Positions 9,754 to 25,235 of a stretch of DNA of 25,260 nt are shown here, piece by piece. The translations under genes and the position numbers were made by a program. This stretch comes from a virus: positions 1 through 25,260 of the IMG/VR virus record IMGVR_UViG_3300022562_000435; one strand, 5' to 3'. The notes beneath the pieces were generated by a model. It ran no database searches, was not told the origin of the DNA, and saw nothing but the letters and a program-made list of their open reading frames with translations. How positions within the stretch are numbered: position 1 is the stretch's first letter; the number at the start of each line of letters is the position of its first letter.

Positions 9754-10245
9754 ATGACGTTCGTTCTCAGACATCCTGCACAGGAAGTGCAATTTTTGAA
9801 GTTCACGGATTCTCCTACGGAGACCCGTCCTATTCCTGCTGGGCGTCTCGTTAGACTGGTAGATGACCGCACGGTTGACACTATTGCCGATGCCAGTAAT
9901 GCCGCTCAGTTCCCCGTAGGCTGGCTTATGCAGAAGGTTAAGGATGCTTATACCGATTTCCCAGCGAACTTTAGGCTTCGCGGAGATCTCGGTTCATCTG
10001 ATGCCTTCGTAGGCGATCCAGTCGCCGTTGCATGCGGCCCCGGGGCAGTATACGAGACAGATCAGTATGTAGATGAAGGTAGCGATGGTATTGCTGCCGG
10101 AACCCTGCTCTACCCAGATGACGACGGTAAGTTGTCAGACACCAACGCTGATAGCGCTGGTGCCGCTGCTGCTGTGGCCCTCAATACGTTGTCGGCCGCC
10201 AACACAGCTGCTGGAGAGATGCTCTTAATCAAGGCTTTGGTCTAA
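9754..10245 (+). CDS. Probable capsid decoration / head stabilisation protein
   Basis: A 163-residue protein just upstream of the major capsid gene, with strong AGGAGG spacing and G+C-rich codon use like its neighbours, so it is probably abundant. It is acidic and Ala/Gly/Asp-rich. It starts with beta-like segments (FVLRHPAQEVQFLKF) and includes PIPAGRLVRLVD and FVGDPVAVACGPGAVYETD, then an Ala-rich stretch (GAAAAVALNTLSAANTAAGE) and a final LLIKALV strand. A small, Gly/Ala-rich, barrel-like protein paired with a major capsid gene is the usual profile of head decoration proteins, which bind the outer shell and stabilise it. No specific family motif was recognised, so the call relies on context and character. 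Confidence 0.6.
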   Translation: MTFVLRHPAQEVQFLKFTDSPTETRPIPAGRLVRLVDDRTVDTIADASNAAQFPVGWLMQKVKDAYTDFPANFRLRGDLGSSDAFVGDPVAVACGPGAVYETDQYVDEGSDGIAAGTLLYPDDDGKLSDTNADSAGAAAAVALNTLSAANTAAGEMLLIKALV

Positions 10246-10255
10246 GGAGGTTGCT

Positions 10256-11329
10256 ATGGATACTCTAAGAGAGCTAAAAGAACTTTTCAGAGCCACGGCA
10301 GCGATTGACACAGAGCAAGGACAGAAGGCATTTCAGGAGTTCTGCGCAGCGATTCGTACTCCTATCCTTCAGGAAGTTAAGTATCAGTCCACTGTTCGAG
10401 ATCTATTCGCAGTCGAGGTTCTTGAGCCAGGTGCTCAGGCCGTTTACCCAGTCGCCGATGACTTTGAGCTTCCTGTTTGGGTTCTCCCTGGACTAGGTTA
10501 TGCTGCTCAGAATTTCATCGAGGGCGTAGGTGAGGATGTATATGTACCAACCTTCACCATTGATACAGCCGCCGATTGGAAGATTCAGTACGCATTGGAG
10601 TCTCGCGTAGACATCGCAGCGCGCGCTGCTCGTAAGGCAGCTGCAGCTGTTGCTGAGTACGAGGAGGAGAGTGGTTGGCGTGTTATTGTACCTGCTGGTA
10701 CGACTAATTTCGCTGCCACGGGCCTTCTACCTTCACGCACAGCTCCTGTTTACGAGGTTCCTGCCGCCTCTGCTGGGGCAGGCTATCTTTCTAAGGAACT
10801 CATCAATAAGATGATCATTGGGTTCCAGCGTGTCGGTCGTACCCTTACGGATTTGTGGGTATCCCCTGAGGATGCCGCGGATATCCGTGAGTGGACAGAG
10901 ACCGATATTGATCCTGTAACTCGTCGCGAGATTTTCCAGGCTGCTGGAATGGGTGCCGTTTGGAATGTCCAGCTGCACGTTCTTCCTCACCTGGGTGGAC
11001 CTGGTAAGTTCAACATCAATGGTTCTACTTCTTCTTATGGACTGTTCCTTGCCGATGGTGCTGGTGATTATGGTGACTACCACCTCGACAACCCGAACGT
11101 TGTTGGTTCCAATGGGGAGGTTACGACTGCTGGTGAGACTCAGATTTGGGGCTTCGATATGACAGCTAACGACTCGCTCGTTATGCCTGTCAAGCAGGAG
11201 TTCCAGGTATTCGATGATCCGACACTCCACCGCCGACAGAAGCAGGGCTTCTACGGTTGGGAGATCGTAGGCTTCGCGTGCCTTGATTCTAGAATGCTTG
11301 GACTCGGAGTAATCGACCGTAGTCTATAA
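10256..11329 (+). CDS. Major capsid protein (HK97-fold candidate)
   Basis: A 357-residue protein expected to form the icosahedral shell. It has a helical N-terminal arm (LRELKELFRATAAID), then VRDLFAVEVLEPGAQAVYPV (about 47-66). A central helix typical of the spine region is seen (VDIAARAARKAAAAVAEYEEESG, read in parts, about 118-140). Later come GFQRVGRTLTDLWVSPEDAADIREW (in parts, about 189-213) and a C-terminal QGFYGWEIVGFACLDSRMLG. This succession matches HK97-like capsid proteins of larger phages. Codon use is the most biased and G+C-rich of the window, fitting the most abundant virion protein. A strong AAGGAGG site overlaps the previous stop, and a strong hairpin follows the gene. No long N-terminal delta domain is evident, consistent with a separate scaffold gene. 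Confidence 0.88.
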   Translation: MDTLRELKELFRATAAIDTEQGQKAFQEFCAAIRTPILQEVKYQSTVRDLFAVEVLEPGAQAVYPVADDFELPVWVLPGLGYAAQNFIEGVGEDVYVPTFTIDTAADWKIQYALESRVDIAARAARKAAAAVAEYEEESGWRVIVPAGTTNFAATGLLPSRTAPVYEVPAASAGAGYLSKELINKMIIGFQRVGRTLTDLWVSPEDAADIREWTETDIDPVTRREIFQAAGMGAVWNVQLHVLPHLGGPGKFNINGSTSSYGLFLADGAGDYGDYHLDNPNVVGSNGEVTTAGETQIWGFDMTANDSLVMPVKQEFQVFDDPTLHRRQKQGFYGWEIVGFACLDSRMLGLGVIDRSL

Positions 11330-11406: not shown

Positions 11407-11922
11407 ATGATCAAGGGATATGTTATAAATAATTTAGGTAGAGGAAAACACATTTTTAAACGGTCGGTGCCCCCAGGGATGAAAGTGCCTTTAGACCAGC
11501 TCTACGAACTCTATTCAAAAAATTACGAAGGTAAGTTTGATACGGAATTTATAGACTGGCTTGAGAAAACGAAAATACCAAAAGGGTCAGGATTTGATAT
11601 TGTACTAGAGGCAATCCTACCTGACGATATAAAAGATACTGAAACAGGTAGTACAAATATTCCTGAAACCATAAGTTTCCTTATCCCCGTGGAGAGTGCT
11701 CAGACCGACCCAGAGCCAGAACCGGAAATTAGACTACCTCCGCCAAGAAAAATGACTTCACGTCAAATAGCGGATTTAAAGATTAAGGATAACCCAAAGA
11801 TAGTCCTTCAGCATATCAGCAGTGTCCATAAACTAAGGCGCGCTCTAACCCTCTGTAAGGATAAGCCGGGGAAGGAGACTTTGTCTCGCCTCATACGAGA
11901 GAGAATGACAGAGATTTCTTAG
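11407..11922 (+). CDS. Hypothetical protein with proline linker and helical C-terminal domain
   Basis: A 171-residue two-part protein. Residues 1-95 form a small domain starting IKGYVINNLGRGKHIFKR and containing FIDWLEKTKIPKGSGFDI. Residues ~100-114 are an acidic-proline linker (DPEPEPEIRLPPPRK). The C-terminal ~57 residues are basic and helical, with IADLKIKDNPKIVLQHIS and HKLRRALTLCKDKPGK. I recognise no family with confidence. The basic helical end could bind nucleic acid or a capsid partner. It is the first gene after the capsid hairpin, with TTGGAGG upstream of its ATG, and its more A+T-rich codons suggest lower expression than the capsid genes. A minor virion or vertex protein is possible. 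Confidence 0.62.
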   Translation: MIKGYVINNLGRGKHIFKRSVPPGMKVPLDQLYELYSKNYEGKFDTEFIDWLEKTKIPKGSGFDIVLEAILPDDIKDTETGSTNIPETISFLIPVESAQTDPEPEPEIRLPPPRKMTSRQIADLKIKDNPKIVLQHISSVHKLRRALTLCKDKPGKETLSRLIRERMTEIS

Positions 11923-11940
11923 AAAGGTGTTATTGACGTG

Positions 11941-12273
11941 ATGTACTTCATTATTTTATTAATAAGTGTAGTAGTAAATGAAGGGCTAGCTGAACTTGTA
12001 TCCAAATCTATGTTTTTTGGACCTTTTAGAGATTCTCTGGCTAGCAGCAACAATGGTGTTCTTGGGTTCTTTAGTAGGGCTATAACCTGCCCTTATTGCT
12101 GCTCTGTTTGGACGGCTATGTTTCTTACTACACTTGTGTTCATCTCATACAGACCTATCCTTACCGGGGATGTGTTAGTTGATGCATTCCTCTTCCTCGT
12201 AGCCTGCCACAGACTTGCCAACCATTTACATGATATAAGCGATAGGTACTTCTCTAAAGATATTTTGAAGTAG
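11941..12273 (+). CDS. Small membrane protein, DUF1360-like
   Basis: A 110-residue inner-membrane protein candidate. An N-terminal hydrophobic segment (YFIILLISVVVN) and two further hydrophobic stretches (VWTAMFLTTLVFIS; VDAFLFLVACHRLANHL) predict about three membrane spans. The motif CPYCCSVWTAM after a short amphipathic region matches the CxxCxxxW signature I associate with the DUF1360 family of small bacterial and phage membrane proteins, whose function is unknown. I start it at ATG 11941; a GTG directly before it (11938) is equally in frame and slightly better spaced from AAAGGTG. A membrane protein inside a virion operon is unusual; host-membrane modification or superinfection exclusion are guesses. 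Confidence 0.65.
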   Translation: MYFIILLISVVVNEGLAELVSKSMFFGPFRDSLASSNNGVLGFFSRAITCPYCCSVWTAMFLTTLVFISYRPILTGDVLVDAFLFLVACHRLANHLHDISDRYFSKDILK

Positions 12274-12289
12274 ATAGGAGTTTTTGTAC

Positions 12290-12634
12290 ATGAGTAGATT
12301 TATTGTGCATGACCGGGTCGGAGTCCGGGGACAGAATGTCCCTGTAGACGAAGATACCTTTAAAGACATTCCGGAAGAGTTATATTCAGACTTGGATAGG
12401 GTACAACAGTACGCTACTGAGTTGGAAAATGCAAGGCATGAGTTGGGCCGATTGATGCAGCTAGTCAGTCACCTTACCAATGTCTGCAATACAGCCGATC
12501 GTAATCTTACACAAGCAAAGAAATCTATAATCGAAGGTATGGATTTGGAAGATGCGAATTGGGCCATAGATTTTGAGAGGAAGCAGATAGGCAAAGTATT
12601 ACCAGTTCAAAAGCCTATGCCCAGGGTAGCATAA
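12290..12634 (+). CDS. Small helical/coiled-coil hypothetical protein
   Basis: A 114-residue unrecognised protein. Residues 1-25 are mixed (SRFIVHDRVGVRGQNV), followed by a long helical region (about 26-95) with heptad-like hydrophobics: LDRVQQYATELENARHELG and LMQLVSHLTNVCNTADRN. It ends in a short basic, proline-containing tail. I choose ATG 12290 because AGGAG at 12276-12280 is nine bases upstream; the in-frame TTG at 12284 would be only three bases from that site. It lies between the membrane protein and the fibre cassette. An assembly chaperone for fibres is conceivable, but nothing specific supports it. Confidence 0.6.
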   Translation: MSRFIVHDRVGVRGQNVPVDEDTFKDIPEELYSDLDRVQQYATELENARHELGRLMQLVSHLTNVCNTADRNLTQAKKSIIEGMDLEDANWAIDFERKQIGKVLPVQKPMPRVA

Positions 12635-12647
12635 TTGGCAGCATAGT

Positions 12648-13577
12648 ATGTCCATAGATACATCGAGGTTTGAGAACTCTATACGCTACGAAGTTGTGTT
12701 AGAGGATGGCCATACTGTAGAGTATTGGTCTACTTCTACGTCGGCTGCTAATTTATCCTTAGACACTACACATGTTACTGGTAAGAGCTCACTCTCATTC
12801 GATAAGATTGCAGGGGCAACATCTGCCACTATATATAGGAATCCATCTGAAATAGGTGTGTTAGACCTTAGTATGTTCGCTCTAACAGGGCGTTTTTATG
12901 TATGGGTATATTTTACTTCTATTGCAGATATTTCTAGCGTAACTTTGTCCTTAGGGACAGACTCGGCCAATTGTTTTAATTGGTCTAAGTCTGTATCAGA
13001 CCTACAGGATGGGTGGAACGAGCTACAGTTTAAATGTACTGATTTTTCCCAATCCGGGAATGGTTTAAATTGGTATAATATACAATACGTGGCCCTGTCG
13101 GTGGGTTTTAGTTCTTCTTCAGATACACTTACAGGTATCGTTCTAGACTCGATTACTATTCAGGACCCTCTGCACAATTATGCCGTAGGGGGTGATGTCA
13201 ATGTCGGCAACTCACCATATAACCACAGGTTATATCAAGTACTAGCTGATGTTACAAATGGTGTTGACAATACTTATTATTACTATATAGACTTAGATAC
13301 TTATAAGTATCTATCTTTACAGTTCATACTAGATGGTGGATCGGGTACAGTCACATGTACTGTAGAAATATCTGCAGCGGATGATGTGGCGTCCCCCTCT
13401 TCTGCCATATATGAGGATATGACCTCATCTTTTTTCTGCGTAAATAACTTTACGCAGAGTACTTACGCAATAGTAGACACTCCATTGCCTGCCAGGTATG
13501 GCAGGGTTAAAGTTGTTGCCAGCACTGGGGGAGCTGATGACGCGGACTGGAAGATCTATTTGGTGAAGACTTACTAG
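12648..13577 (+). CDS. Two-domain virion surface protein with jelly-roll-like N-terminal module (paralogue of 19945-20505)
   Basis: A 309-residue beta-rich protein. Residues ~9-172 form a module shared with the protein at 19945-20505. Both begin ENS(I/L)RY followed by (E/D)DG, then DT(T/L)HV(T/S)G with SFDK (near 39-53), then DGWNELQF or TGWNHLQF with G(N/D)GL(N/D)W (near 121-142), and end with a GIVLDS or GVLLDS strand. Such domains resemble carbohydrate-binding jelly rolls. Residues ~173-309 are a second beta domain, rich in Tyr, Ser and Asp, found only in this copy. No signal peptide is seen. Placement at the head of the fibre cassette suggests a surface-displayed glycan-binding or fibre-attachment protein. 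The fold is inferred from pattern, not proven. Confidence 0.65.
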   Translation: MSIDTSRFENSIRYEVVLEDGHTVEYWSTSTSAANLSLDTTHVTGKSSLSFDKIAGATSATIYRNPSEIGVLDLSMFALTGRFYVWVYFTSIADISSVTLSLGTDSANCFNWSKSVSDLQDGWNELQFKCTDFSQSGNGLNWYNIQYVALSVGFSSSSDTLTGIVLDSITIQDPLHNYAVGGDVNVGNSPYNHRLYQVLADVTNGVDNTYYYYIDLDTYKYLSLQFILDGGSGTVTCTVEISAADDVASPSSAIYEDMTSSFFCVNNFTQSTYAIVDTPLPARYGRVKVVASTGGADDADWKIYLVKTY

Positions 13578-13589
13578 AGGAGGCGCGCC

Positions 13590-14294
13590 GTGACAGTTTA
13601 TAGAAGTTCAGCTGTGGCGTTTAATTCTGGGTGGGATCAGACGTGTCTACTAAAATTAGGGGACTATTATTTTTGGGTCGATTCTGTAAGTACATTACGG
13701 ATCAAGCAAGGGTCCCCTACCTCCGATATGGATGGTACTCCAATAGGTAGTGGCGGAGGGGAAGTAAATACAGCTTCAAATATAGGTGCGACCGGAGTCG
13801 GGGTTTTTTATCAGAAAGTTGGTGTAGATCTTCAATTTAAGACGGTTACCTCAGGAAGCAACCTGATATATGTTCAGGATGATTCTTCGAACCACCAAAT
13901 AGCAATTGATGTCAGAAACGATCTGCCTGAGTGGAATGCCAATGCCCTACAAGGAAATTCTATCGCATCAGGAGTGCCTGTAGACGGACAGATTCTACGG
14001 TGGAACTCCGGAAGTTCTCAGTGGGGTTACGATTATGAAATGGCCGGACCAGGTATTAAGAGGGGTATTGTTGATAATACTTCATTTTCTGGTTCCCCAT
14101 ATAGATATAGTGTTTCCTTCGCTACCTCATATTCAGGTACTAGCTACTCTGTAACAGCCACACCAGTGTGCTCTGGTAGTGCTAGTTATCTTATATCTAT
14201 AGAAGATAAGACAGATTACGGATTTATAATTAATACGGGAAGTAATGATATTATTAATCTAGTAGAGGTCGACTGGCAGACCATAAGCATTTAA
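13590..14294 (+). CDS. Short fibre protein with H-type-lectin-like C-terminus
   Basis: A 234-residue modular fibre protein starting at GTG, preceded by AGAGGAGG. Residues ~20-54 (LLKLGDYYFWVD, LRIKQGSPTSDMDGT) resemble a common phage fibre N-terminal domain. A module NIGATGVGVF with LQFKTVTSG and IAIDV (64-108) is followed by the WNA module (EWNANALQG, DGQILRWNSGSSQW, 114-145). A C-terminal domain (~157-234) contains SFSGSPYRYSVSF, YSVTATP, DYGFIINTGSND and a final VDWQTISI. That last pattern is also found in the next three genes and resembles the H-type lectin fold used by many phages for receptor binding. It is the only fibre gene here lacking the YNSTEKRFKVYRNG domain. Confidence 0.7.
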   Translation: MTVYRSSAVAFNSGWDQTCLLKLGDYYFWVDSVSTLRIKQGSPTSDMDGTPIGSGGGEVNTASNIGATGVGVFYQKVGVDLQFKTVTSGSNLIYVQDDSSNHQIAIDVRNDLPEWNANALQGNSIASGVPVDGQILRWNSGSSQWGYDYEMAGPGIKRGIVDNTSFSGSPYRYSVSFATSYSGTSYSVTATPVCSGSASYLISIEDKTDYGFIINTGSNDIINLVEVDWQTISI

Positions 14295-14307
14295 GGGGGG
14301 AAATAAA

Positions 14308-15309
14308 ATGGCGTTATATATACAAGACATAGTACTAAACTCATTAACTTCTGATCCTACCGATCTTCAAGAAGGGTTGATTTGGTACAATTCTACAGAG
14401 AAAAGATTTAAAGTTTACAGAAATGGGAATATCGAGTCATTAAGCGATCTAGATGAGCTTACTTCCCACACCTCCGATCTAGCCAACCCGCACAGTACGA
14501 GTTTAGAGAAAGCTAGACAAGTCTATAGTACTGTTTCCGGCACTATTGACATGGATTCGAATAAAATCCTAAACGTTGGTGACCCAACCCTGGATGGGGA
14601 TGCTGTCAACAAGTTGTACGCTGATAGCTATGTCGGTGGTATTTTGGTTTCTGGTACCCCAACTAATGGCCAACACTTTTCCTATCACGCGGGGAACGGT
14701 GTATGGCAATTTTTGGACGCCGGCACTGTTACTATTACCGGTGCTACTAATATTGGCTCAGGGGAGGGTGTCTACGATAGTATCGTCAATGAGACTTTGC
14801 AGTTTCGTAGCATTGGGACCACTGACCCCTTTGTTACTATTTCTGGAAATATAGATAATACTGAAGTTCATGTTCACGTAGATAACACTGCATACCAATG
14901 GAATGCCAGATGGCTGGACAACATGCCTGTTTCTTCAGGCACCGCAAGTGGGCACCCTGCAGTGGGGGATTTGCTAACTTACTCCAGTTCTAATGGAGGG
15001 GAGTGGAAGCCCGTTGCTCAGTCGGTAATTGGATTCCCTCTTTATCTTAAAGCTGGTCTATTAGGACCAGGCTCTTTTTCGGGAAACCCCAAGGTCGCCT
15101 CGTATTCTGTTGTTGGAGTCCCCTTCCCTACTTCCTATGTAGTCACTGCTACTGCTGAAACTGTAAGTGGTACTGTGTATACTCCTGTCGTACAAAATAA
15201 GACAGGTAGTGGATTTGAGATTAATTTAGGAACAAATGACATTAGTTATCTAGTGTATGTTAACTGGACTGCCATGCCTGCAGACGAGGCGTCGGAGTTC
15301 CCGTACTAG
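14308..15309 (+). CDS. Fibre protein, tandem paralogue 1
   Basis: A 333-residue adhesin-like fibre. Domains in order: WYNSTEKRFKVYRNG start domain (residues ~8-50); NPH-type segment (N60) with SLEKARQVYSTVSG and NKILNVGDPTLDGDA (66-99); GQHFSYHAGNGVWQF (121-135); a VG-module, NIGSGEGVYD to EVHVHVDNT (148-194); WNA module (198-233); H-lectin-like C-terminus (~248-320) with GSFSGNP, YVVTATA, NKTGSGFEINLG and VNWTAM. Proteins with WYN/NPH/WNA modules are trimeric phage fibres, and the C-terminus probably binds the receptor. It shares long near-identical stretches with the next gene, including a 43-base identity. TAAGGGGGG provides the ribosome site. Whether it sits on the tail, neck or head is unknown. 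Confidence 0.75.
   Translation: MALYIQDIVLNSLTSDPTDLQEGLIWYNSTEKRFKVYRNGNIESLSDLDELTSHTSDLANPHSTSLEKARQVYSTVSGTIDMDSNKILNVGDPTLDGDAVNKLYADSYVGGILVSGTPTNGQHFSYHAGNGVWQFLDAGTVTITGATNIGSGEGVYDSIVNETLQFRSIGTTDPFVTISGNIDNTEVHVHVDNTAYQWNARWLDNMPVSSGTASGHPAVGDLLTYSSSNGGEWKPVAQSVIGFPLYLKAGLLGPGSFSGNPKVASYSVVGVPFPTSYVVTATAETVSGTVYTPVVQNKTGSGFEINLGTNDISYLVYVNWTAMPADEASEFPY
14504..14546 (+). repeat. 43-base exact direct repeat, copy A
   Basis: These 43 bases, beginning TAGAGAAAGCTAG and ending CCGGCACTAT, are identical to 15524-15566. The two copies lie 1020 bases apart at the same place in two tandem fibre genes whose flanks have diverged. They code for the (L)EKARQVYSTVSGTI segment. Confidence 0.9.
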
Positions 15310-15327
15310 CACTAAGGCTAAGAAAAT

Positions 15328-16323
15328 ATGCCGTTACGTATATCTGATATTACTTTGGATTCGATGCCCTCTGACCCACCTTCTCCAGAAGAAGGTGAGT
15401 TTTGGTATAATTCAACAGAGGATCGATTCAAGGTGTATAGAAATGGATCTATCGAGTCCTTAAGTGATTTAGATGAGCTAACAGCCCACTTAGCTGATTA
15501 TAATAACCCACATGGTGTTAGCCTAGAGAAAGCTAGACAAGTCTATAGTACTGTTTCCGGCACTATCGATATGGGCTCTAACAAGATTTTAAATGTTGGG
15601 GACCCAACTTTAGACGGTGACGCGGTAAACAAGCTATACTCTGACTCTTACGTAAACGGTATTCTAGTATCAGGTACCCCAAGTGATGGTCAACATTTTT
15701 CCTATCATGCAGGTAACGGTGTATGGCAATTTCTCCCCGCCCCTTCTATTTCAGGTGCGTCTAATGTAGGAGTTGGCGGTGTAGGAGTATTTGATGGTCT
15801 TTCTAATGGTGTCCTTCAGTTTAAGAACATAAATACGACTGATTCTTTCGTTACAATAACAGACGATGTTGGGAATAATGAAATAGATATACATGTAGAT
15901 AATACTTCTGCTGTATGGAATGCTAATAAGATTGACGGTATGACCGTGTCGTCTGGCGCCGGTGGTTTAAACCACCCTTTACACTTTGATGTTCTTACAT
16001 ATAATAGCAGTACTAAAACGTGGTACCCGGACATTACCCCTATATATTACTTGTACCAAACCACAATTAAAGCGGGAACGATATACCCAGGATCCTTTAC
16101 GGGGACCCCGCCAACAGCGACTTACACCTCTGTTGGAGGATTTCTTGATACAAATTACGGTGTAGCGGCTACCGCTTGCACGGTTAGTGGTACTGTATAT
16201 GCCTGCATTGTACAGAACAAGACCACTGATGGGTTTGAGATTGTTATGGGGTCTAATGATTTAAGTGACCTAGTCAGCGTTGGTTGGGTCGCCGCTGCTG
16301 ACGGAGAAGGGTCTGAATGGTAA
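15328..16323 (+). CDS. Fibre protein, tandem paralogue 2
   Basis: A 331-residue protein with the same domain order as the gene before it: N-terminal FWYNSTEDRFKVYRNG domain, NPHGVSLEKARQVYS segment, NKILNVGDPTLDGDA, GQHFSYHAGNGVWQF, VG-module (NVGVGGVGVFDG to EIDIHVDNT), WNA module (VWNANKIDGMTV), and an H-lectin-like C-terminus (GSFTGTPPTATY, YGVAATA, NKTTDGFEIVMGSND, VGWVAA). The N-terminal halves of the two proteins are near-identical, whereas the WNA and C-terminal parts differ strongly, as expected when the receptor-binding tip is under selection for change. The ribosome site is weak (AAGGCTAAG). A weak hairpin-plus-T-run follows. Proposed role: receptor-binding fibre alternative to or partner of its paralogues. 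Confidence 0.75.
   Translation: MPLRISDITLDSMPSDPPSPEEGEFWYNSTEDRFKVYRNGSIESLSDLDELTAHLADYNNPHGVSLEKARQVYSTVSGTIDMGSNKILNVGDPTLDGDAVNKLYSDSYVNGILVSGTPSDGQHFSYHAGNGVWQFLPAPSISGASNVGVGGVGVFDGLSNGVLQFKNINTTDSFVTITDDVGNNEIDIHVDNTSAVWNANKIDGMTVSSGAGGLNHPLHFDVLTYNSSTKTWYPDITPIYYLYQTTIKAGTIYPGSFTGTPPTATYTSVGGFLDTNYGVAATACTVSGTVYACIVQNKTTDGFEIVMGSNDLSDLVSVGWVAAADGEGSEW
15524..15605 (+). repeat. Repeat block shared with both flanking fibre genes
   Basis: Bases 15524-15566 are identical to 14504-14546 in the upstream gene. Bases 15568-15605 (38 bases, starting GATATGGGCTCTAAC) are identical to 16802-16839 in the downstream gene. Adjacent segments of this gene therefore match different neighbours best, which suggests recombination or gene conversion within the array. 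Confidence 0.88.
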
Positions 16324-16343
16324 CAGTAGCGCTACTTGTTTTT
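16322..16343 (+). terminator. Weak hairpin with T-rich tail after fibre paralogue 2
   Basis: AGTAGCGCTACT is a perfect palindrome. The stem can be extended to AACAGTA pairing with TACTTGTT with one bulged base around the loop GCGC, and it is followed by further Ts. The stem is short and A+T-rich, so at best this is a partial terminator. The 73-base gap to the next gene is the largest inside the fibre array. Confidence 0.35.
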
Positions 16344-16396
16344 AACTTCATAATATTCAATTCAGTGTATGGGTATATTTATTAGGAGGACATTAC

Positions 16397-17554
16397 ATGT
16401 CATCATTCGATGTAAGTAGTATACAACTTAATTCATTAAGTGAGGACCCAGCAAGTCTTGAAGAAGGCCAGCTTTGGTTTAATAGTACTGAGAAGAGATT
16501 TAAGGTTTACCGTAACGGTACTATAGAGACTGTAAGTCATTTAGATGAAGTCACAACCCATTCTACAGACTACAATAACCCACACGGTGTTAGCTTAGAG
16601 AAAGCTCGTCAGGTATATAGTACCATTTCTGGTACTGTTGATATGAATTCAAATCGTATTCTTAATGTTGGGTCCCCAAGTCAACCAGGGGATGCTATAA
16701 ATAAAACATACGCTGATACCCATATTACCGATTACAGCAATCCGCATGGTGTAAGTCTAGAGAAAGCTAGGCAGGTATACAATACTGTTTCTGGTTCTGT
16801 GGATATGGGCTCTAACAAGATTTTAAATGTTGGGGACCCGACTTTAGACGGTGACGCGATAAACAAACTCTACGCTGATTCATATGTAAATGCTATTTTG
16901 GTATCTGGAGTTCCTAGCACTGGGCAGCATTTGGTATTTAGAACACCAAACAATGTTTGGGTACCAGATAACGGTCCCACATTCTCTGGAGTGGAGAACG
17001 CCGGTGTTGGAGGTGTTGGCATATACGATACTATTACTAATGGGATACTTAAATTAAAAAATATTAATACGTCCGACTCTTTTATTACTATCAGTAATGA
17101 TACTGTAAACAAAGAAATAGATATTCATGTAGATAATACTGCATACCAGTGGACTGCTAATAGGCTTTTGGGAGTCCCAGTTGCATCGGGGACCTATCCT
17201 CTTAACGATGGTGTTGTATTGACGTACTCATCCTCCTTAGGGGCTTGGAGGCAGTACCCCACACAGGATTTTTCTTCTGTTCAGGTTCAAGGTACTATTA
17301 AGTCTGGTATTGCTGTAACAGCTGATTTCTCCGGGGCTCCTCTTGTAGCAACAGTAACTTTTGTTAATCCGTACTCTGATACAAACTATGTAGTTCAACT
17401 TTCTACCCAAGCAAACAGCACTAACGGCTATTTCCCCAACATTCAGAATATTACATCAGCAGGTTTTGATATAAATTTACGTGTGAATACCTCCACAAAC
17501 CTAGTCGGTATACATTGGTTCACCGTATGGAAGGGTGACGCTCAGGATTATTAA
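16397..17554 (+). CDS. Fibre protein, tandem paralogue 3 with internal 54-residue duplication
   Basis: A 385-residue protein of the same family as its two upstream neighbours. The N-terminal LWFNSTEKRFKVYRNG domain is followed by the NPHGVSLEKARQVYS-NILNVG unit twice, with NPH at residues 61 and 115, exactly 54 apart. The second copy matches paralogue 2 more closely at DNA level than it matches the first copy. Then come a GQH segment, a VG-module (NAGVGGVGIYD to EIDIHVDNT), a WNA-type module (QWTANRLLGVPV) and an H-lectin-like C-terminus (DFSGAPLVATVTF, NITSAGFDINL, VGIHWFTVW). The extra unit should lengthen the shaft and present the tip further from the virion. A strong AGGAGG site precedes the ATG. 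The location on the virion is not known. Confidence 0.75.
   Translation: MSSFDVSSIQLNSLSEDPASLEEGQLWFNSTEKRFKVYRNGTIETVSHLDEVTTHSTDYNNPHGVSLEKARQVYSTISGTVDMNSNRILNVGSPSQPGDAINKTYADTHITDYSNPHGVSLEKARQVYNTVSGSVDMGSNKILNVGDPTLDGDAINKLYADSYVNAILVSGVPSTGQHLVFRTPNNVWVPDNGPTFSGVENAGVGGVGIYDTITNGILKLKNINTSDSFITISNDTVNKEIDIHVDNTAYQWTANRLLGVPVASGTYPLNDGVVLTYSSSLGAWRQYPTQDFSSVQVQGTIKSGIAVTADFSGAPLVATVTFVNPYSDTNYVVQLSTQANSTNGYFPNIQNITSAGFDINLRVNTSTNLVGIHWFTVWKGDAQDY
16802..16839 (+). repeat. 38-base exact direct repeat of 15568-15605
   Basis: The sequence starting GATATGGGCTCTAAC and ending GGGGACCC is identical to the copy in the preceding fibre gene, and after one mismatch the next 18 bases also match. 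It lies in the second, duplicated NPH unit of this gene. Confidence 0.88.
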
Positions 17555-17575
17555 CATTGGAGTTTTAAAAAAATT

Positions 17576-19921
17576 ATGCGCATTACGGCCTTATCCGAAA
17601 AAATAGTAGTAAGTGAACTCTCTGGTGATGGAGTTTCTTTAGATGTAGATCAGTCTAAATTACATCACCAGATGTTGCAAGGGGCAGGTAAGAATACACA
17701 TGCCGCGATTGACTCGCACCTATCGTCTAGTCTAAATCCACACTGTGTAAGAGCTGAGCAGACAGGGGCTGTACCAGTTACAACTAAAGATAAGCCCAAC
17801 GGGGTACCAGGTTTGGACTCAGAGGGTAGAATTAAAGAAACCGTTATACCTATATCTATCGCTAGATATGGTGATGTTCAGAGGCATGCGAACTCCAATG
17901 CCAATCCACACAATGTTACTGCGGTACAGATAGGAGCAGTGAGTGTAGTTTCCGTAGGTGCTCCAGATGGTATTGCCCCACTTGATGGTAAGGGTAGGTT
18001 ACCGGAACGTTTCTTACCTGCTACTGCTGTTACACAAGATGATCTAAAGAAACACATTGAAAGGACGAATAATCCTCATGGTGTTACTCCTGGGCAAATT
18101 GGAGCCATACCTTCCTATGAAAAGGGGAGAGTTAATGGGGTTGTGCCGATAGGAGAAGATGGTAAGGTAGATATCGGGTTTTTACCAGATATTTTTACTA
18201 AAAGTCCCGATTTCGTACATCATACTTCTTCGTCAGCTAATCCTCACAAGGTAACTGCTGTGCAGGTAGGCGCGGTACCTATTTATTTGGTAGGGAAGCC
18301 GGACGGAGTTGCTGGTCTGGATAAGAACGGGCATATACCAAAAAGTTTGCTAGGTTCAGATATCCTTTATATGGAAGATTTAGATAAACACTCGTCCAAT
18401 ACCAGCAACCCGCACAAAGTTACGACTGATATCATAGGGGCGGTATCTAAGCATGACTTGGGTAGGCCCGGAGGGGTTGCACAGCTAGACGCTTCTGGAA
18501 GACTTCCTGAGAACTTGTTCCCAGATACTATAGTTACTACTAGTAGTTTAGATGGGCATGCTAGTAGAAAAGATAATCCACATAAGGTTACCCCTAGCTT
18601 AATAGGAGCAGTAGCTATTACAGCTGTAGGTTCTCCAGGGGGAGTTGCTGGATTAGGACCCGATGGTAAGATATCTGAAAAGGTTGTCCCAGAAACATTG
18701 GTACGGTCGAATGTATTTGAGTCACATAAGTATGAACTTAACCCACATGGGGTTACTGCAGATCAAGTTGGTGCTATAAGTGTTGTCTCAAAGGGCCGGC
18801 CTGGGGGCGTAGCCTCATTAGATGCACGCGGTATGCTTGATAAAAATCAAGTACCCTATGACGTTGTTTTAGACTCACAGCTAGAGTCCCATGTTGGAAA
18901 TAATGCAAACCCACATAATGTGACTCCCGAGCAAGTTGGGTCCGACTCTCCTTTTTGGAACGCGTGTAAGATTATGGGGATGGAGATTACAAAATCTACT
19001 CCATCTGATAATCAAATTTTACGGTGGTCTAGTGGAATTAATAAATTTGTTTTTGATTACGAGTCCATGGTTGGAGAGGTTAATACAGGTAAGTCTATAG
19101 GGGCTGGAGTAGAAGTTTATTCAGGTAAGAGTGGGGATATATTACTATTTAGAACCATTAGACCTAAGTCCAACTTATTGAAAATATCTACGTCGGAAGA
19201 TTTCAATTCTATAGAGTTTGATGTGAACGAAGCTAATGTAGATCACAGCAGAATTAAAAACTCTGGGGAATTTAGCCACGTTGTCATTGATTCTCATTTG
19301 AGGGACAAGAGCAATCCACACGGTGTAACTTCGACCCATGTAGGGAAAGATATAGCGCAGTGGAATGCGGATAGGATCCTAGGTAGAAAGGTGTCTACCT
19401 CAACTCCATCCGATGGGCAAGTCCTTAAATGGAATGCAGAGATAAACCAGTGGGTTCCTACAAATGAGGCCGCTCTACAAGCTGAGCCTAATGCCGCCGC
19501 GAACGTTGGTTTATCTGGTATTGGTATTTTTAAGCGAAAAGAGAACGCTGTACTTGAATTTAAGAAGTTACGTTCTCTTACAAATAAACTGGAATTAAGG
19601 GACGATGAAAGGAATTCATGCATTAACTTGGATATTAATGAAAGTACCATTGTGCATGATCGACTTTCTGGCTCTGGCAAATATAAGCACAGTGAGCTAG
19701 ATAGTCATATAGACAGTCGTAATAATCCACATAATGTGACACCTAAGCAGGTTGGGTCTGATAACCCGGAGTGGAATGCTAATAGAGTGCAGGGTATTTA
19801 TGTGGATACAGGCGACCTGCGAGACAACGATATCCTGGTCTATAGTAAAGAACACAATAAGTTTGTGTGTACGAACATTGTGGACCTAGTTAGATCAATA
19901 GTACAAGATTTGACCATTTAA
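17576..19921 (+). CDS. Long repetitive fibre protein with 56-residue NPH repeats
   Basis: A 781-residue fibre. Eight NPH motifs occur at residues 54, 110, 166, 222, 278, 334, 389 and 445, an almost exact 56-residue period. Each unit reads roughly NPHxVTxxQxGAV, GxPxGVAxLDxxGRLPE, and a hydrophobic-H segment. Two more NPH motifs (580, 717) belong to a second, ~136-residue repeat: WNA module (461, 596, 733) plus N(I/V)Gx(S)G module plus IDSHL/HIDS segment. This suits a long trimeric shaft. It lacks the H-lectin-like C-terminus of its neighbours and ends in a short helix. It could be a main shaft onto which the shorter lectin-tipped fibres attach, which is inference. The ATG has TTGGAG ~12 bases upstream, a loose spacing. 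Confidence 0.75.
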   Translation: MRITALSEKIVVSELSGDGVSLDVDQSKLHHQMLQGAGKNTHAAIDSHLSSSLNPHCVRAEQTGAVPVTTKDKPNGVPGLDSEGRIKETVIPISIARYGDVQRHANSNANPHNVTAVQIGAVSVVSVGAPDGIAPLDGKGRLPERFLPATAVTQDDLKKHIERTNNPHGVTPGQIGAIPSYEKGRVNGVVPIGEDGKVDIGFLPDIFTKSPDFVHHTSSSANPHKVTAVQVGAVPIYLVGKPDGVAGLDKNGHIPKSLLGSDILYMEDLDKHSSNTSNPHKVTTDIIGAVSKHDLGRPGGVAQLDASGRLPENLFPDTIVTTSSLDGHASRKDNPHKVTPSLIGAVAITAVGSPGGVAGLGPDGKISEKVVPETLVRSNVFESHKYELNPHGVTADQVGAISVVSKGRPGGVASLDARGMLDKNQVPYDVVLDSQLESHVGNNANPHNVTPEQVGSDSPFWNACKIMGMEITKSTPSDNQILRWSSGINKFVFDYESMVGEVNTGKSIGAGVEVYSGKSGDILLFRTIRPKSNLLKISTSEDFNSIEFDVNEANVDHSRIKNSGEFSHVVIDSHLRDKSNPHGVTSTHVGKDIAQWNADRILGRKVSTSTPSDGQVLKWNAEINQWVPTNEAALQAEPNAAANVGLSGIGIFKRKENAVLEFKKLRSLTNKLELRDDERNSCINLDINESTIVHDRLSGSGKYKHSELDSHIDSRNNPHNVTPKQVGSDNPEWNANRVQGIYVDTGDLRDNDILVYSKEHNKFVCTNIVDLVRSIVQDLTI
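17735..18916 (+). repeat. Coding tandem repeat, period 168 bases (eight NPH units)
   Basis: Each unit encodes about 56 residues beginning NPHxV; one interval is 55. The DNA units have diverged considerably while the protein period is strictly kept, so the repeat is old and structurally constrained rather than a recent slippage product. It lies wholly inside the long fibre gene. Confidence 0.85.
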
Positions 19922-19944
19922 AAATAACAAGTGGAGGTAGACCC

Positions 19945-20505
19945 ATGCCTAATTCTAGTAATGTTAAATACGAGAATAGTTTGCGTTACCGAATAAGATT
20001 AGACGACGGAGAATCATCTGCTACGTGGACTGACGGAGGGTACTCTACTGTATCAGGCATTGCATCCGACACACTACACGTCAGCGGCGCACATTCTGTT
20101 TCTTTCGATAAGGAAAGCACAGCTAGCGTTAACGGTTTCGTTGCTAAAGAGATAGACAGCGGAGGGGCTGATTTTAATGACATAGCTATAGATGGAGTTC
20201 TTAATGTAATGCTCTATCTACCAGCTTCGTCGGGAATAGACCATTTAGAATGCCGCCTTGTTAGTGATACTCCATTGGCGTATACTAACTATGTATCGTG
20301 GTCTGCGCCAACATTCTTAACTGGGTGGAATCATCTACAATTTCCACTACTAAGTGGTACTCAGACCGGTGATGGTCTTGATTGGACAGATGTGAGGTAC
20401 TTATCGGTTGGTGTTGTAATGTCAGCCGCTGGAAACAAAGTGGCGGGTGTACTTCTAGACTCTTCATGGATTAACGTCCCACTATTAACGACAACGGCAG
20501 CGTAA
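19945..20505 (+). CDS. Jelly-roll-like single-domain protein (paralogue of 12648-13577)
   Basis: A 186-residue protein corresponding to the N-terminal module of the protein at 12648-13577, without that protein's second domain. Shared landmarks: ENSLRYRIRLDDG (10-22), SDTLHVSGAHSVSFDK (41-56), TGWNHLQF (126-133), TGDGLDWTDVRYLSVGV (141-157) and GVLLDS (168-173). The fold is probably an all-beta sandwich of the carbohydrate-binding type. GGAGG lies eight bases before the ATG. It closes the fibre cassette, while its paralogue opens it. It may be an attachment or glycan-binding accessory for the fibres, or a surface decoration. The paralogy is clear in the sequence; the function is inferred. Confidence 0.66.
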   Translation: MPNSSNVKYENSLRYRIRLDDGESSATWTDGGYSTVSGIASDTLHVSGAHSVSFDKESTASVNGFVAKEIDSGGADFNDIAIDGVLNVMLYLPASSGIDHLECRLVSDTPLAYTNYVSWSAPTFLTGWNHLQFPLLSGTQTGDGLDWTDVRYLSVGVVMSAAGNKVAGVLLDSSWINVPLLTTTAA

Positions 20506-20515
20506 GGGGGTTGCT

Positions 20516-21427
20516 ATGCCAGTAGTTGTAACTATACGAGTATCTGATCCATCAGGGGCTATAGCTTCTGGATATGATAGTATAAAAGTATATAGAGCTA
20601 GTTATCAGGACGGTTACTTTTTAGAGATTACAACTGCGTCAACTCGACCGTCTTTATCCTCAACACAAATCTACTATAATTTTGAGGACACAACTGGAAC
20701 CTCGTCTTCATGGTATAAGACCTCTTTCTATGATTCGACGACCCCCGCCGAGTCTAGTTTATCAACTGCTACTAAAGGTATTGAAGTAGAGTTAGAACAT
20801 GTAGATATTACGTACCCTGATGAGATTACATTAACTTCTGTAGACCAGTATAACTTAGGTCGCATACGCCACTACATTGGCGACCCTAAGAAGGTTTTGC
20901 GGGACTACGTAAGTTCCAGTTGTACTAGCGGATATCAAAATGTTTCTGGTGATGGTCAAACTTATAAGTTAGATAATCGAGGGTGGCCTCTTAGGGTAGA
21001 GAAAGATTCCGTATCTTATACGTCGTCTTCTAATCCATATGTAACAGATTATAGCTATCTAACATTCAGCGGTACGGAGATTTCGACAGTCTCAGGTGTC
21101 ATAGACATTTGGTATGAGTCCTTTAGACATTCCGATAGGGAAATATTAAAGATATTCAACACCACTCCTAACCCACCGAATGTATCGTCGTCCTCTGTTA
21201 CCGATGAAATGCTTCGACTATATGCATCTATTTCGATTCTTAGAGAAGAACTCACTCAACTCATGGGGGAGACTTCTGGCTCTTTCACCTTAGTAGGCGA
21301 GATGTCGTATAACCCAGAACCACTCCTTCGTCAGAAGAGACAGCTTCTTAAGGATTTAGAGGATCAGCTTGATACTCTTATCGATGAAGCCAAGGTGGCT
21401 AATATAACTGGTGTTAGAATAGACTAG
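20516..21427 (+). CDS. Head-tail connector (adaptor)-like protein with Fn3/Ig-like N-terminus
   Basis: A 303-residue protein. Residues ~4-85 look like a fibronectin III/Ig-like beta domain (SIKVYRASYQDGYFLEI, then YNFEDTTGTSSSWYKTSF). Next comes YNLGRIRHYIGDPKKVLRDY (112-131), which resembles the LRxxIGD segment of phage head-tail connector (adaptor) proteins. A beta-rich middle follows, and then a C-terminal helical/coiled-coil region (~228-295) with LRQKRQLLKDLEDQLDTLID. Adaptors bind beneath the portal and seal the packaged head. The gene is followed by other neck-like genes and the tail tube candidate, which supports the call. The Fn3-like addition is an extra. TAAGGGGG precedes the ATG. 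Confidence 0.58.
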   Translation: MPVVVTIRVSDPSGAIASGYDSIKVYRASYQDGYFLEITTASTRPSLSSTQIYYNFEDTTGTSSSWYKTSFYDSTTPAESSLSTATKGIEVELEHVDITYPDEITLTSVDQYNLGRIRHYIGDPKKVLRDYVSSSCTSGYQNVSGDGQTYKLDNRGWPLRVEKDSVSYTSSSNPYVTDYSYLTFSGTEISTVSGVIDIWYESFRHSDREILKIFNTTPNPPNVSSSSVTDEMLRLYASISILREELTQLMGETSGSFTLVGEMSYNPEPLLRQKRQLLKDLEDQLDTLIDEAKVANITGVRID

Positions 21428-21436
21428 GAGGCTGCT

Positions 21437-21991
21437 ATGGGAATGATACCGCCAGGTCTTAAGAAGGAAATACGAACACGTTTCTTAGATTTAGTCTCAG
21501 AGCTTAAAAAGCCTATCGTTGTTTTTGGGCAGCCTTATAAGGAAGACTGTCCTAACTGCCTGCACGACCATAATGGCGAATCTATAAATCAGTTTGATTC
21601 TAGTTTTGCTGCACCTGTCGTTATATTTGGATCTACCGTATCACCCATATCTTTTACTAGAGGCCGATGCCCCGTGTGCCATGGACGAGGTAGGTTGGAA
21701 TCACCAAATATTTCAAATATCTATGGCCTTGTGCTGTGGAACCCCCCATCTGTAGATCCGTCTAAGGGGTCTATGGTGGCTACACCAGCTGGACTAGAGG
21801 GAAAGAATGTCGTCCGTATCAAAGTAGAGAAATGCTATTACGATGTTATCAGGGACTGCACCAAGATAGTTTTGGATGGGGTTGATTGTGTCCTAGCGAT
21901 ACCTCCAGTTCTACGAGGAACCGGGGAGATTGATGACATGGTTACCGCGTACCTATTTCCAAGCGCGGTTGGATCATCTGTAAGGGGGTAG
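21437..21991 (+). CDS. Neck-region protein with zinc ribbon
   Basis: A 184-residue protein carrying two knuckles, CPNC (residues 38-41) and CPVCHGRGRL (78-87), forming a likely C4 zinc ribbon around an intervening ~36-residue segment. The second knuckle resembles DnaJ-type CxxCxGxG motifs. The region after ~90 is beta-rich (YGLVLWNPPS, VRIKVEKCYYDVI, IVLDGVDCVLAI). No signal peptide. It lies between the adaptor-like gene and further neck candidates, with TAGGAGG upstream, so a head-closure (stopper) role is plausible, with the zinc site stabilising the fold. The zinc ribbon is seen directly; the neck role comes from position. Confidence 0.58.
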   Translation: MGMIPPGLKKEIRTRFLDLVSELKKPIVVFGQPYKEDCPNCLHDHNGESINQFDSSFAAPVVIFGSTVSPISFTRGRCPVCHGRGRLESPNISNIYGLVLWNPPSVDPSKGSMVATPAGLEGKNVVRIKVEKCYYDVIRDCTKIVLDGVDCVLAIPPVLRGTGEIDDMVTAYLFPSAVGSSVRG

Positions 21992-21994
21992 CAC

Positions 21995-22624
21995 ATGGAC
22001 TTTGAACGTGAAGCCGCTGTTAAGTTTAATGAGAACGTTAAGAAAGTTCTTATGGTCGACTTTGTAGGTGATTACTTAACGTTTTTCAGCAACTATTATG
22101 ATGAAAATTTAATACAAGCATTTAAATTTAATGATTTTGACAGAACGGCGCCAATATATCTAAAGCCAGATATTATGAACCACCTTAGGGTGGAGTTAAC
22201 TGCTATGGTTGGAAGAATAGACCCTAAAGGTACTATGTTATTACGAGGTCTAGACTCAAATGCTTTCTCTAAGCCATCTAGAAAAGATACTGATCCTTTA
22301 CGTCTATTCTACTTTTATATACACGGAACTGCTGACGCTTATGTTGCTCTGACCCAGGAGCATTATTTGAAAATGATGCCATTTCTGAAAGGTGAGTTTT
22401 TGGGTAGGTTTGGTAATATGCATCTAATGGAAATGAGTCGTTACGAGCAAATTTACACGACCATCCCAGATAATTTTAGAGTTAACTGGCCTAACCCGTT
22501 GAGTATTAAGCATCCGTTTTCTTTTGCTCCGCCAATTCGTATTTTCGAAGACACCTGGAGATACATGGAAACCAGGTTTACTGATTATTTCAAAAAAGCT
22601 GCTAAAATGACTTTCGGCTCTTAA
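21995..22624 (+). CDS. Hypothetical neck or tail-completion protein
   Basis: A 209-residue, cysteine-free, aromatic- and Met-rich protein (FYFYIHGTADAYV, FLKGEFLGRFGNMHLMEMSRY) with mixed helical and beta character. The Phe/Pro-rich part SIKHPFSFAPPIRIFEDTW lies near 168-186, and the C-terminus is an amphipathic basic helix. I recognise no family. It overlaps no neighbour but starts three bases after the previous stop with an AAGGGGG site, so it is part of the neck block. Proteins at this position are usually head-closure, tail-completion or tail-terminator factors. That is the best guess and rests on order alone. Confidence 0.6.
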   Translation: MDFEREAAVKFNENVKKVLMVDFVGDYLTFFSNYYDENLIQAFKFNDFDRTAPIYLKPDIMNHLRVELTAMVGRIDPKGTMLLRGLDSNAFSKPSRKDTDPLRLFYFYIHGTADAYVALTQEHYLKMMPFLKGEFLGRFGNMHLMEMSRYEQIYTTIPDNFRVNWPNPLSIKHPFSFAPPIRIFEDTWRYMETRFTDYFKKAAKMTFGS

Positions 22625-22667: not shown

Positions 22668-23438
22668 ATGACCGCATCTAGATTACGTTTAGAAAACGCT
22701 TCAATTTTCAATTTTATGAAATATGAGATCATCAGCCCAGCGTTCTCTGAATTGAGTTCGGTGGAAGATCTTGTCTATGATAGTAATCTAGCAGCCTATG
22801 TTGCTCAAAGTGCAATGGACCCTAGCCCAACCTCGGAAGGTCGCGGTTGGGTATTTTTTGATGACGCAACCGTAAATAGTCGTATTATTGTTGATACGAA
22901 CAGTGAACAGACTACCAAAGTCGTTGTGACTGGGGCATCAACTTACACAGTAAACTATCTCAATGGGTCTATAAAGAACCCAGATACAACACCAACCTCT
23001 GTACAATATTATTGGAATTATGTCTCTGTATTGCCTAGTTGGCCAGGGACTACCCCTCCCCCACTTCCTTTTGTTTATATGGGTATTGATGCCAATAGAA
23101 AAGAAGGTTTCCAATTAGGCGGCGGCGTACGCAATTTGAGGACAGTCAGTTTTGATATTTTTGCTACTACAGCATCAGAGCGAGACGATATTGCTGACGT
23201 TGTTCACTCAGCGTTGTTCAACCGTACTATCACCATCAGAGATTTCAGCGGGGGAGGCTACCTAAACTACGATGGAACATTCAATTCCTCCGTATCCATC
23301 CCCCCTCCCAATTTAGGTAATCTTATATTCTTAGATGTAACAATGAAGAACATCCACGTAGCCGGCGAATGGACGGATCTACACAAGTATCGAAGCTTAG
23401 TATCGGGTACCTACGAGTCTCTAGTAGACTCTAGTTAA
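22668..23438 (+). CDS. Probable tail-completion / tail-terminator-like protein
   Basis: A 256-residue protein directly upstream of the tail tube candidate. The N-terminal ~115 residues form a beta-rich domain (VVVTGASTYTVNYLNGSIKN). The second half contains FDIFATTASERDDIADVVHSAL (in parts, ~170-191), ITIRDFSGGGYLNYDGTF and a final IFLDVTMKNIHV strand. A segment in which an ER-containing helix is followed by short strands is common in phage tail-completion proteins, which cap the tail tube and contact the neck. The ribosome site is GGGTGG. A 186-base gap follows the gene. The call is moderate; a neck protein of another type is possible. Confidence 0.55.
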   Translation: MTASRLRLENASIFNFMKYEIISPAFSELSSVEDLVYDSNLAAYVAQSAMDPSPTSEGRGWVFFDDATVNSRIIVDTNSEQTTKVVVTGASTYTVNYLNGSIKNPDTTPTSVQYYWNYVSVLPSWPGTTPPPLPFVYMGIDANRKEGFQLGGGVRNLRTVSFDIFATTASERDDIADVVHSALFNRTITIRDFSGGGYLNYDGTFNSSVSIPPPNLGNLIFLDVTMKNIHVAGEWTDLHKYRSLVSGTYESLVDSS

Positions 23439-23624: not shown

Positions 23625-25235
23625 ATGACATCTAGACGAAATAGAATTATCTATGCGAGCCAGAGTGTTATTGTCGAAGGTGATTACCTCTACAGAGTTC
23701 AGACCCTTGGGTCAACTACCACGTTCACTTCAAACGATGTGTTCGAGCTTGGTCAGTTGAGCATCATCGACATCGTTGATGACGTCCCCTCTGTAGCAAT
23801 TACCCTCGATACAAATGACTGGGGCTCAATTGACACTATCGCCTCTCTGGGAAGTGTAGATAAGTCTGGATTCGGTTCTACGGCGGTTGACGGAAACGCT
23901 AACCTTACGGTAGTTAGTGGTACGGTAGAGATTTCTTACTACCATGGTGTTGCTTTGGCGAACTTCGGCCAGCAATCAAGTTTCGACTTGTGGGCCCCTG
24001 TTCAGTCTGAGGCAGACCTTGGTACGGCCAATGATAACATTGACCAGACCTTGTACCTGCCTAACTGCTTCGTCAACAGCATTGAATTCGGATATTCAAC
24101 TGGCGCTAACGCTACTGAGAACTACGGTGCTGAGAGCGATAGCAAGACTTGGTTCTTGAATAGTGGGAAGTTTATTTCTCAGGAGGAGTGGGACCTAGCT
24201 GGGGGTGAGACTACGATTACCCTTGGTCTTGCTGCCGGTACACAGTCTGTAGCAACTCTTTCTGATACATCTCTTGGATTCCTGTTCTTAACAGATCTAG
24301 GAGAGCGCGCTATTCGTGTGACGACATCTGGAACCGGCGCCGAGACGTTCTATGCGGTTAACGACACGGCTGCTACAGCTACAGAGGCCTATTACAACTC
24401 TGCCACACAGGTAGTGACGCTTCCCACTGGTTTCACAGCCGTTGGTGGCGACTTGCTTACAGCTCGCTACGCAGCCGATGCGTATGCAAGTAATACCGGT
24501 GATGCTACTAGAGTTAAGGCCGGGTACTTCACTTCTCTTGTCGATGGAGACACAACCCGTCCTGAGGACGTTGGTGCTCTTCGACAAGGGCAGATTGAGA
24601 TCTACCTTGTAGATCCCGATGTAGTTGGGCCTGGAGATTCTTATGACATCGCCCTACGTCTAAGATCTGCTAGAGTTACTGCAGCTCTTACACGTGAGAC
24701 ACTTAACGAGCTAGGTCACCTTAAGCCTTATGACCGTCCGTTGACCTTCCCAGTTCAGATTACGACGGCCATTGAGACCACAGCTGGTGACCTTGAGACG
24801 TACGCACGTTTCGCTGGAAAGACAGCTGAGTATACTGCAGGTACGATTAACGATCTAGACCTCAACCACTTGTTGGTCAAGGACAACCTTATCTTGGTTG
24901 CCATGGTATACCAGCAGACGGACGAGTCCGCAGGTGGTATTGGTACCAACAGATTGGCACTAGACGTAGACATGGCGGGCACCGAGTACTTTGTACGCGG
25001 TGTTCGTTCAACCTACCCAGATCCAATCAACCCCGCGTCTCCGGTACGTGAGTACCCACTTAAGACTCTTGTTGTACCAGATCTTAAGATCACTGATGAG
25101 GGCTACACCAACTCAGTAGGTGCTAACGCGACCCAGACATTCTCATTCCGCAGCACGAACAAGCTTTTCGTTGTTAAGGGATACGTTGACATTGCAGATA
25201 TTGTAGTGTCACCTGGTTTACAGCTTAACGCATAA
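23625..25235 (+). CDS. Major tail tube protein candidate
   Basis: A 536-residue beta-rich, cysteine-poor protein with strongly biased, G+C-richer codons, like the capsid gene, so probably abundant. The N-terminal region ITLDTNDWGSID (near 59-70), after FELGQLSIIDIVDD (40-53), resembles the start of tail tube proteins. A later segment, TRETLNELGHLKPYDRPLTF (near 353-372), resembles a tail tube/sheath family motif. The middle part (~130-330) looks like an inserted beta domain, which would be exposed on the tail. It is larger than typical tube proteins (150-350 residues). No sheath gene is seen in the window, so a contractile tail cannot be decided. A strong AGGAGG site precedes the ATG. A tail sheath is the main alternative. 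Confidence 0.7.
   Translation: MTSRRNRIIYASQSVIVEGDYLYRVQTLGSTTTFTSNDVFELGQLSIIDIVDDVPSVAITLDTNDWGSIDTIASLGSVDKSGFGSTAVDGNANLTVVSGTVEISYYHGVALANFGQQSSFDLWAPVQSEADLGTANDNIDQTLYLPNCFVNSIEFGYSTGANATENYGAESDSKTWFLNSGKFISQEEWDLAGGETTITLGLAAGTQSVATLSDTSLGFLFLTDLGERAIRVTTSGTGAETFYAVNDTAATATEAYYNSATQVVTLPTGFTAVGGDLLTARYAADAYASNTGDATRVKAGYFTSLVDGDTTRPEDVGALRQGQIEIYLVDPDVVGPGDSYDIALRLRSARVTAALTRETLNELGHLKPYDRPLTFPVQITTAIETTAGDLETYARFAGKTAEYTAGTINDLDLNHLLVKDNLILVAMVYQQTDESAGGIGTNRLALDVDMAGTEYFVRGVRSTYPDPINPASPVREYPLKTLVVPDLKITDEGYTNSVGANATQTFSFRSTNKLFVVKGYVDIADIVVSPGLQLNA

Follow-up and report, generated by a model that had tools for sequence, protein, structure and literature searches.

Fibre and adhesin genes placed between the capsid genes and the neck genes of a virus raise the question of where on the virion their products act. 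We addressed this question for a 25.3-kb virus fragment (the window, 25,260 nucleotides), in which all called genes lie on the + strand, and in which TerL, a portal-type protein, the major capsid protein (MCP) and neck/tail-type genes flank a cassette of seven genes (12648-20505). An earlier note had read this region as five fibre-like proteins with two flanking jelly-roll-like proteins, and we confirmed these open reading frames, their strand and, for the first six kinds, their counterparts in a related genome, G001. The cassette spans 7.9 kb with gaps of only 10-73 bp between its genes, and consists of two carbohydrate-binding-module (CBM)-like jelly-roll proteins, JR1 and JR2, on either side of four paralogous fibres and a long repeat fibre.

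Table 1. Features of the window discussed in the text, with the basis of each assignment.
Feature	Coordinates	Strand	Size and basis
163-aa protein directly 5′ of MCP	9754..10245	+	45-84% identity in relatives; decoration-type by position only
Major capsid protein, phage G gp27-like HK97 fold	10256..11329	+	PDB 6wkk E=3e-18; phrog_2522
Conserved gene A, head-neck core	11407..11922	+	between MCP and connector in most relatives
Conserved gene B, DUF1360 membrane protein, head-neck core	11938..12273	+	Pfam PF07098; in most relatives
Conserved gene C, left neighbour of cassette	12284..12634	+	directly precedes connector in G009, G022
JR1, CBM-like jelly-roll (about residues 15-173), first cassette gene	12648..13577	+	309 aa; AlphaFold2
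Fibre 1, fibre repeat and C-terminal domain common to fibres 2-4	13590..14294	+	234 aa; alignment; 64% identical to G001
Fibre 2	14308..15309	+	333 aa; tandem paralogue; PHROG fibre/decoration matches
Fibre 3	15328..16323	+	331 aa; tandem paralogue
Fibre 4, duplicated N-terminal repeat	16397..17554	+	385 aa; C-terminal domain weakly H-type-lectin-like
781-aa fibre with eight 56-residue NPHxVT repeats	17576..19921	+	repeat spacing; PHROG tail-fibre matches to E=3e-34
JR2, second CBM-like jelly-roll, last cassette gene	19945..20505	+	186 aa; homology to JR1
Conserved right neighbour, putative connector/adaptor	20516..21427	+	label from conserved position only
Two conserved neck-type genes	21437..22624	+	184 and 209 aa; same order in relatives
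Conserved neck/tail-type gene	22668..23438	+	256 aa; same order in relatives
Conserved putative major tail protein	23625..25235	+	in relatives followed by a 3,400-4,650-aa tape-measure-sized gene

We first considered the genes that frame the cassette. The MCP is firmly identified by its sequence match to the solved phage G gp27, while the 163-aa protein encoded upstream of it gave no convincing sequence match to phage G gp26. The cassette lies between the MCP block and the conserved neck/tail block. The earlier note had it splitting the capsid module from the connector, which is right as to position, except that the conserved genes A, B and C stand between the MCP and the cassette. Gene B carries a conserved CPYC/CGYC-type cysteine motif and is kept in the head-neck block of most relatives. 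As for the connector itself, a gene like that at 20516 was present in 20 of the 21 relatives searched (four of the seven of the first set); the name given to it earlier is a label by conserved position, for which PHROG, Pfam and PDB provided no support. Neither the putative connector nor the putative tail protein of the window had sequence relatives in the PDB, and neither matched those neck-candidate and sheath proteins of Astraea with which they were compared.

Relatives were collected by an MCP-based scan, which identified seven loci, and then 39 viral loci and three in metagenome-assembled genomes (MAGs), whereas a single-sequence TerL scan of viral contigs identified none. The MAG matches are short contigs assigned to Geobacteraceae, WOR-3 and Altiarchaeales, and a host cannot be called from such weak evidence. 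In about 34 MCP-sharing relatives, comparison revealed a core order of MCP, A, B, often C, connector, three neck/tail-type genes and the putative tail protein, ending in the tape-measure-sized gene. In most of these genomes the gap between MCP and connector is 1.1-3 kb and holds no fibres. In G009 and G022 the connector comes right after gene C, about 15 bp away, which provides the exact empty site: the same two genes are separated by 7.9 kb in the window.

The occupied sites differ widely in content. A jelly-roll-led cassette was found in five genomes (the window, G001, G002, G003 and G008), which form one group in the MCP tree (support 96/99), and the nearest group, with weaker support (81/66), is the empty-site pair. 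Although this clade keeps the jelly-roll-led organisation across wide MCP divergence, the contents differ: the window and G001 carry NPH-repeat fibres, and LamG-type lectin domains are found in G003 and G008, G003 having a beta-helix protein as well. Outside the clade, G005, which belongs to another MCP clade, carries a wholly different set of 12 genes in the interval, G027 has three genes that match part of the G003 cassette in order, and G028 encodes an 1841-aa pectate-lyase-like protein directly after the MCP. G021 and G024 have other inserts; since one of those in G024 encodes a histidine-kinase-like protein, the inserts are not all adhesins. The empty site and the differing inserts at one interval establish the MCP-connector interval as an accessory site with cassette turnover. 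Thus the gene-order comparison that the earlier note had suggested did find a fixed head-neck site, but one used for accessory insertion rather than a fixed gene order.

One explanation is that these are non-virion or moron-type genes, whose products would be made along with the head operon yet be secreted or work elsewhere, or that the block was passively acquired as a mobile element. Patchy presence among relatives fits this, as do homing endonucleases in the same interval in relatives. We nevertheless regard it as quite improbable, given that the cassette genes are tightly spaced on the same strand as their neighbours and show no GC shift against the surroundings, that no integrase was recognised and no long flanking direct repeats were detected at the cassette borders, and that the jelly-roll-led organisation persists in the clade despite MCP divergence. 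The endonucleases are observed as HNH/homing-endonuclease-type genes directly after the MCP in G003 (L028:12322-15440), G008 (L069:2484-4439), G009, G022 and G025, and some relatives carry further genes of this type within the cassette.

The cassette frames are real coding genes, since G001 has the first six gene kinds in matching order, with 49-64% identity wherever the full length could be compared. TerL, portal and MCP are about 70-87% identical between the two genomes. The faster divergence of several cassette genes is as expected for receptor-facing proteins, but it is not unique to the cassette, since some other genes are also just 50-65% identical to G001. The G001 counterpart of fibres 2-4 (L002, about 13989-15302) is split into two open reading frames by stop codons or frameshifts. 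Transcription units could not be drawn for the window because the scans for signals were weak: promoters were found at chance level (34 against 31.6 expected), and the excess of terminator-like signals was unconvincing (17 against 10.9 expected).

The fibre proteins were then examined for repeats and families. Fibres 2-4 are tandem paralogues, as reflected by DNA repeats of 214-272 nt at 61-79% identity. The C-terminal domain of fibre 4 reached the H-type lectin family PF09458 with E=0.024, below the cut-off. Among PHROGs, fibre 4 matched phrog_2647 'head decoration' (E=7e-15) and the tail-fibre family phrog_2710 (E=3e-13); the best stretch on phrog_2647 covers about 66 of 336 profile positions, short of a full-length family match. 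In the 781-aa protein the eight NPHxVT motifs are spaced 55-56 residues apart, with two more at 135-137, and matches were found in Goslar and SPbeta-like phages. The shared feature with the YomR and Goslar gp29-type fibre proteins is this NPHxVT-type repeat architecture; those proteins differ in lying in other gene contexts and in being about 25-30% identical over part of the length.

These matches bring up a second explanation, that the cassette encodes ordinary tail or side fibres out of their usual order, which assemble on the distal tail or along it. Fibre-type repeats and families of the ordinary tail-fibre kind are indeed present, as PHROG families of tail fibres were matched by fibres 2-4 and by the 781-aa protein. 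Structure prediction contributed little on the fibres: the AlphaFold2 model of fibre 3 was poor (mean pLDDT 44.5) and was left out of the structure search. No docking domain was identified.

Prediction was more informative for JR1. Its N-domain (about residues 15-173) was modelled as a jelly-roll, mostly at pLDDT 80-96; the C-terminal stretch of some 110 residues was predicted as a beta region at low confidence. Among solved structures, the N-domain nominally came closest to the turret head protein (8qpg) of the archaeal virus Haloferax tailed virus 1 (HFTV1), with VIA Z 14.3 and 2.5 A over 140 residues at 18% identity. CBM11, 30, 27 and 15 followed at Z 12.5-13.5; the turret match, being within one Z unit of CBM11 and CBM30, is tied with the CBMs. 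The model thus assigns the JR1 N-domain a CBM jelly-roll fold, which is the part of the structure prediction called for by the earlier note that succeeded, the fibre 3 model being unusable and docking domains not having emerged. JR2 is homologous to the N-domain at about 30% identity. JR1 had no Pfam match, neither the jelly-roll proteins nor the fibres had PDB sequence relatives, and database scans with the jelly-roll and 781-aa proteins returned only already known relatives. At sequence level, homology of JR1 to HFTV1 gp31 was not supported (hhalign probability 1%).

The predicted fold of JR1 suggests glycan binding but does not tell the position on the virion. Neither fold nor repeats fix the location, because tail proteins elsewhere also contain jelly-rolls and fibre repeats of related kinds. 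A lower-scoring fold match (Z 9.8) was to a phi812 baseplate domain, and in Streptomyces phages such as BillNye a jelly-roll-like sequence adjoins the tape-measure gene; both of these findings favour the tail-fibre explanation.

The distal adhesin genes of relatives bear on this explanation. The 145-kb G003 has a cassette, and its 3,587-aa tape-measure gene is followed by a long distal block in which Ig-like, Kelch and F5/8-type domains occur. This block is collinear with that of the cassette-less G014 through very large proteins, the largest matched ones reaching 1,855 aa in G003 and 2,631 aa in G014. Since G003 keeps the distal block, its cassette is an addition and not a relocated tail locus. 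The window phage would probably also have a separate distal block, judging by these relatives; the window itself ends before that region. Furthermore, rather than being encoded with baseplate or tail genes after the tape-measure gene, the cassette precedes the neck and tail genes, and cassettes recur in this one head-neck interval in several lineages. When the cassette proteins of the jelly-roll clade were compared with sampled distal and other structural loci, no match was found except for one G001 protein and endonuclease-type genes. On the other side, adhesin modules can move between loci: homologues of the 1841-aa protein that G028 encodes next to the MCP lie upstream of the terminase as well as in the distal region of G014. 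Weighing these points, we consider tail or side fibres rather unlikely, yet the most serious competitor.

We further compared the cassette with known systems in which appendage genes lie near head genes. In HFTV1 the turret genes (gp30-31) have neck genes on one side and tail-tube genes on the other, the virion touches the host with its head first, and the N-terminal CBM of the turret is proposed to make the first contact with host glycans (PMC12494034, PMC9973310). The capsid turrets (gp30 base, gp31 head; PDB 8QPG) share with the cassette an N-terminal CBM-fold domain and a gene position in the head-to-tail-tube interval; reversible glycan contact by the head is a proposal for both systems. 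However, there is no sequence-level support for a relationship, the turret head carries a deacetylase-like C-domain and is accompanied by a small base protein, neither of which was found here, and several large fibres accompany the jelly-rolls in the window. The head fibre of phi29 is a precedent for a fibre gene near head genes (PMC7602432): comparison of the phi29 record with the window order shows the gp8.5 gene likewise inside the head-connector block, and its role in host contact is non-essential according to the literature. Unlike the several beta-type fibres and jelly-rolls here, it is a single alpha-helical coiled-coil protein, and no cassette protein matched its family in Pfam or PHROGs.

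In Bixzunavirus (mycobacteriophage cluster C1), genes annotated 'head fiber' (gp99) and 'head decoration' (gp111) lie between MCP and neck/sheath genes, an arrangement seen for both Astraea gp111 and the window, and fibre 4 matches the gp111 family phrog_2647, mainly over a short repeat. The head-appendage labels are annotations, and the MCP is not clearly related to that of the window. For phiCbK, gp76 was put forward as the head-filament candidate on the strength of where its gene lies and of its lectin domain (PMC3556154). It resembles the cassette as a giant lectin-domain protein encoded nearer to the head than to the tail genes of a large siphophage with two-step adsorption, but it is a single glycine-rich protein of 2,799 aa with unrelated sequence, and its filament identity is that of a candidate. 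With these four systems encoding or annotating head appendages near head genes, the unusualness that the earlier note implied for fibres between head and neck genes was overstated.

With modest confidence, we prefer to read the cassette as an accessory set of adhesin genes that can be exchanged at a fixed head-neck site in large phages whose MCP is of the phage G type; its products are most likely appendages borne on the capsid or neck. This retains as the best interpretation the earlier idea of fibres on the head, whiskers on the neck or a glycan-binding apparatus on the capsid, on the grounds of the fixed site, the additional status in G003 and the CBM-like fold; the location is taken from gene order, there as here, and the likenesses to tail proteins and the tie of the fold match with ordinary CBMs count against it. 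JR1, JR2 and the presumably trimeric fibres would be incorporated into the virion as these appendages and would bind host surface glycans reversibly. Such a grip could hold the virion at the cell until distal tail adhesins engage and commit it, that is, a two-step adsorption.

Within the preferred reading, and overlapping it in probability, the appendages might be fibritin-like neck-collar whiskers instead of capsid-surface fibres. The cassette lies immediately 5′ of the putative connector and neck genes, as whiskers might lead one to expect. We hold this version to be unlikely, because no fibritin or whisker family was matched in Pfam or PHROGs, a jelly-roll with multiple paralogous fibres resembles multi-copy decoration at least equally well, and it is a capsid turret that nominally comes closest in fold.

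Few cultured viruses are known to carry adhesins on their heads, and in those the set is usually fixed and limited to one or two proteins. Across the relatives compared here, an entire adhesin set comes, goes and is exchanged at a single precise site, with collinearity preserved in the remainder of the structural module. Accessory adhesins encoded near head or neck genes are known as such; it is plausible that a swappable multi-gene cassette, its precise site and its large uncultivated lineage are new. More tentatively, and short of calling it probable, we propose that in a widespread uncultivated jumbo phage lineage the head-neck genome junction serves as a plug-in site for swappable capsid- or neck-borne glycan-binding fibres, allowing HFTV1-like head-first adsorption to be re-tooled independently of the distal tail. 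If the appendages are head- or neck-borne, they would give large phages a second layer of host range that evolves on its own, and the content of the MCP-to-neck gap would offer a simple genomic criterion for finding such phages.

Several further observations were made on the window and its relatives. Tape-measure-sized open reading frames of about 3,400-4,650 aa lie downstream of the 23625-like gene in G003, G005, G007, G009, G014 and G021. The sheath family PF04984 was not found in the nine relatives searched, where a divergent sheath is possible. The long tape-measure frames and the lack of a recognised sheath gene possibly point to very long non-contractile tails. G024, a 545-kb viral contig, carries three MCP-like genes (349950, 396016, 413232) and a fragment, which suggests either paralogous capsid genes or several genomes joined in the assembly. 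A 162-aa protein (window 1548-2036), which by eye only resembles NusG/KOW-type transcription factors, is kept upstream of the terminase in relatives at 33-78% identity. Finally, the 571-aa protein at the protease position (window 6433-8148) contains repeated His-rich stretches (HSH, HTH, HRH), and its relatives range in length from about 408 to 572 aa.
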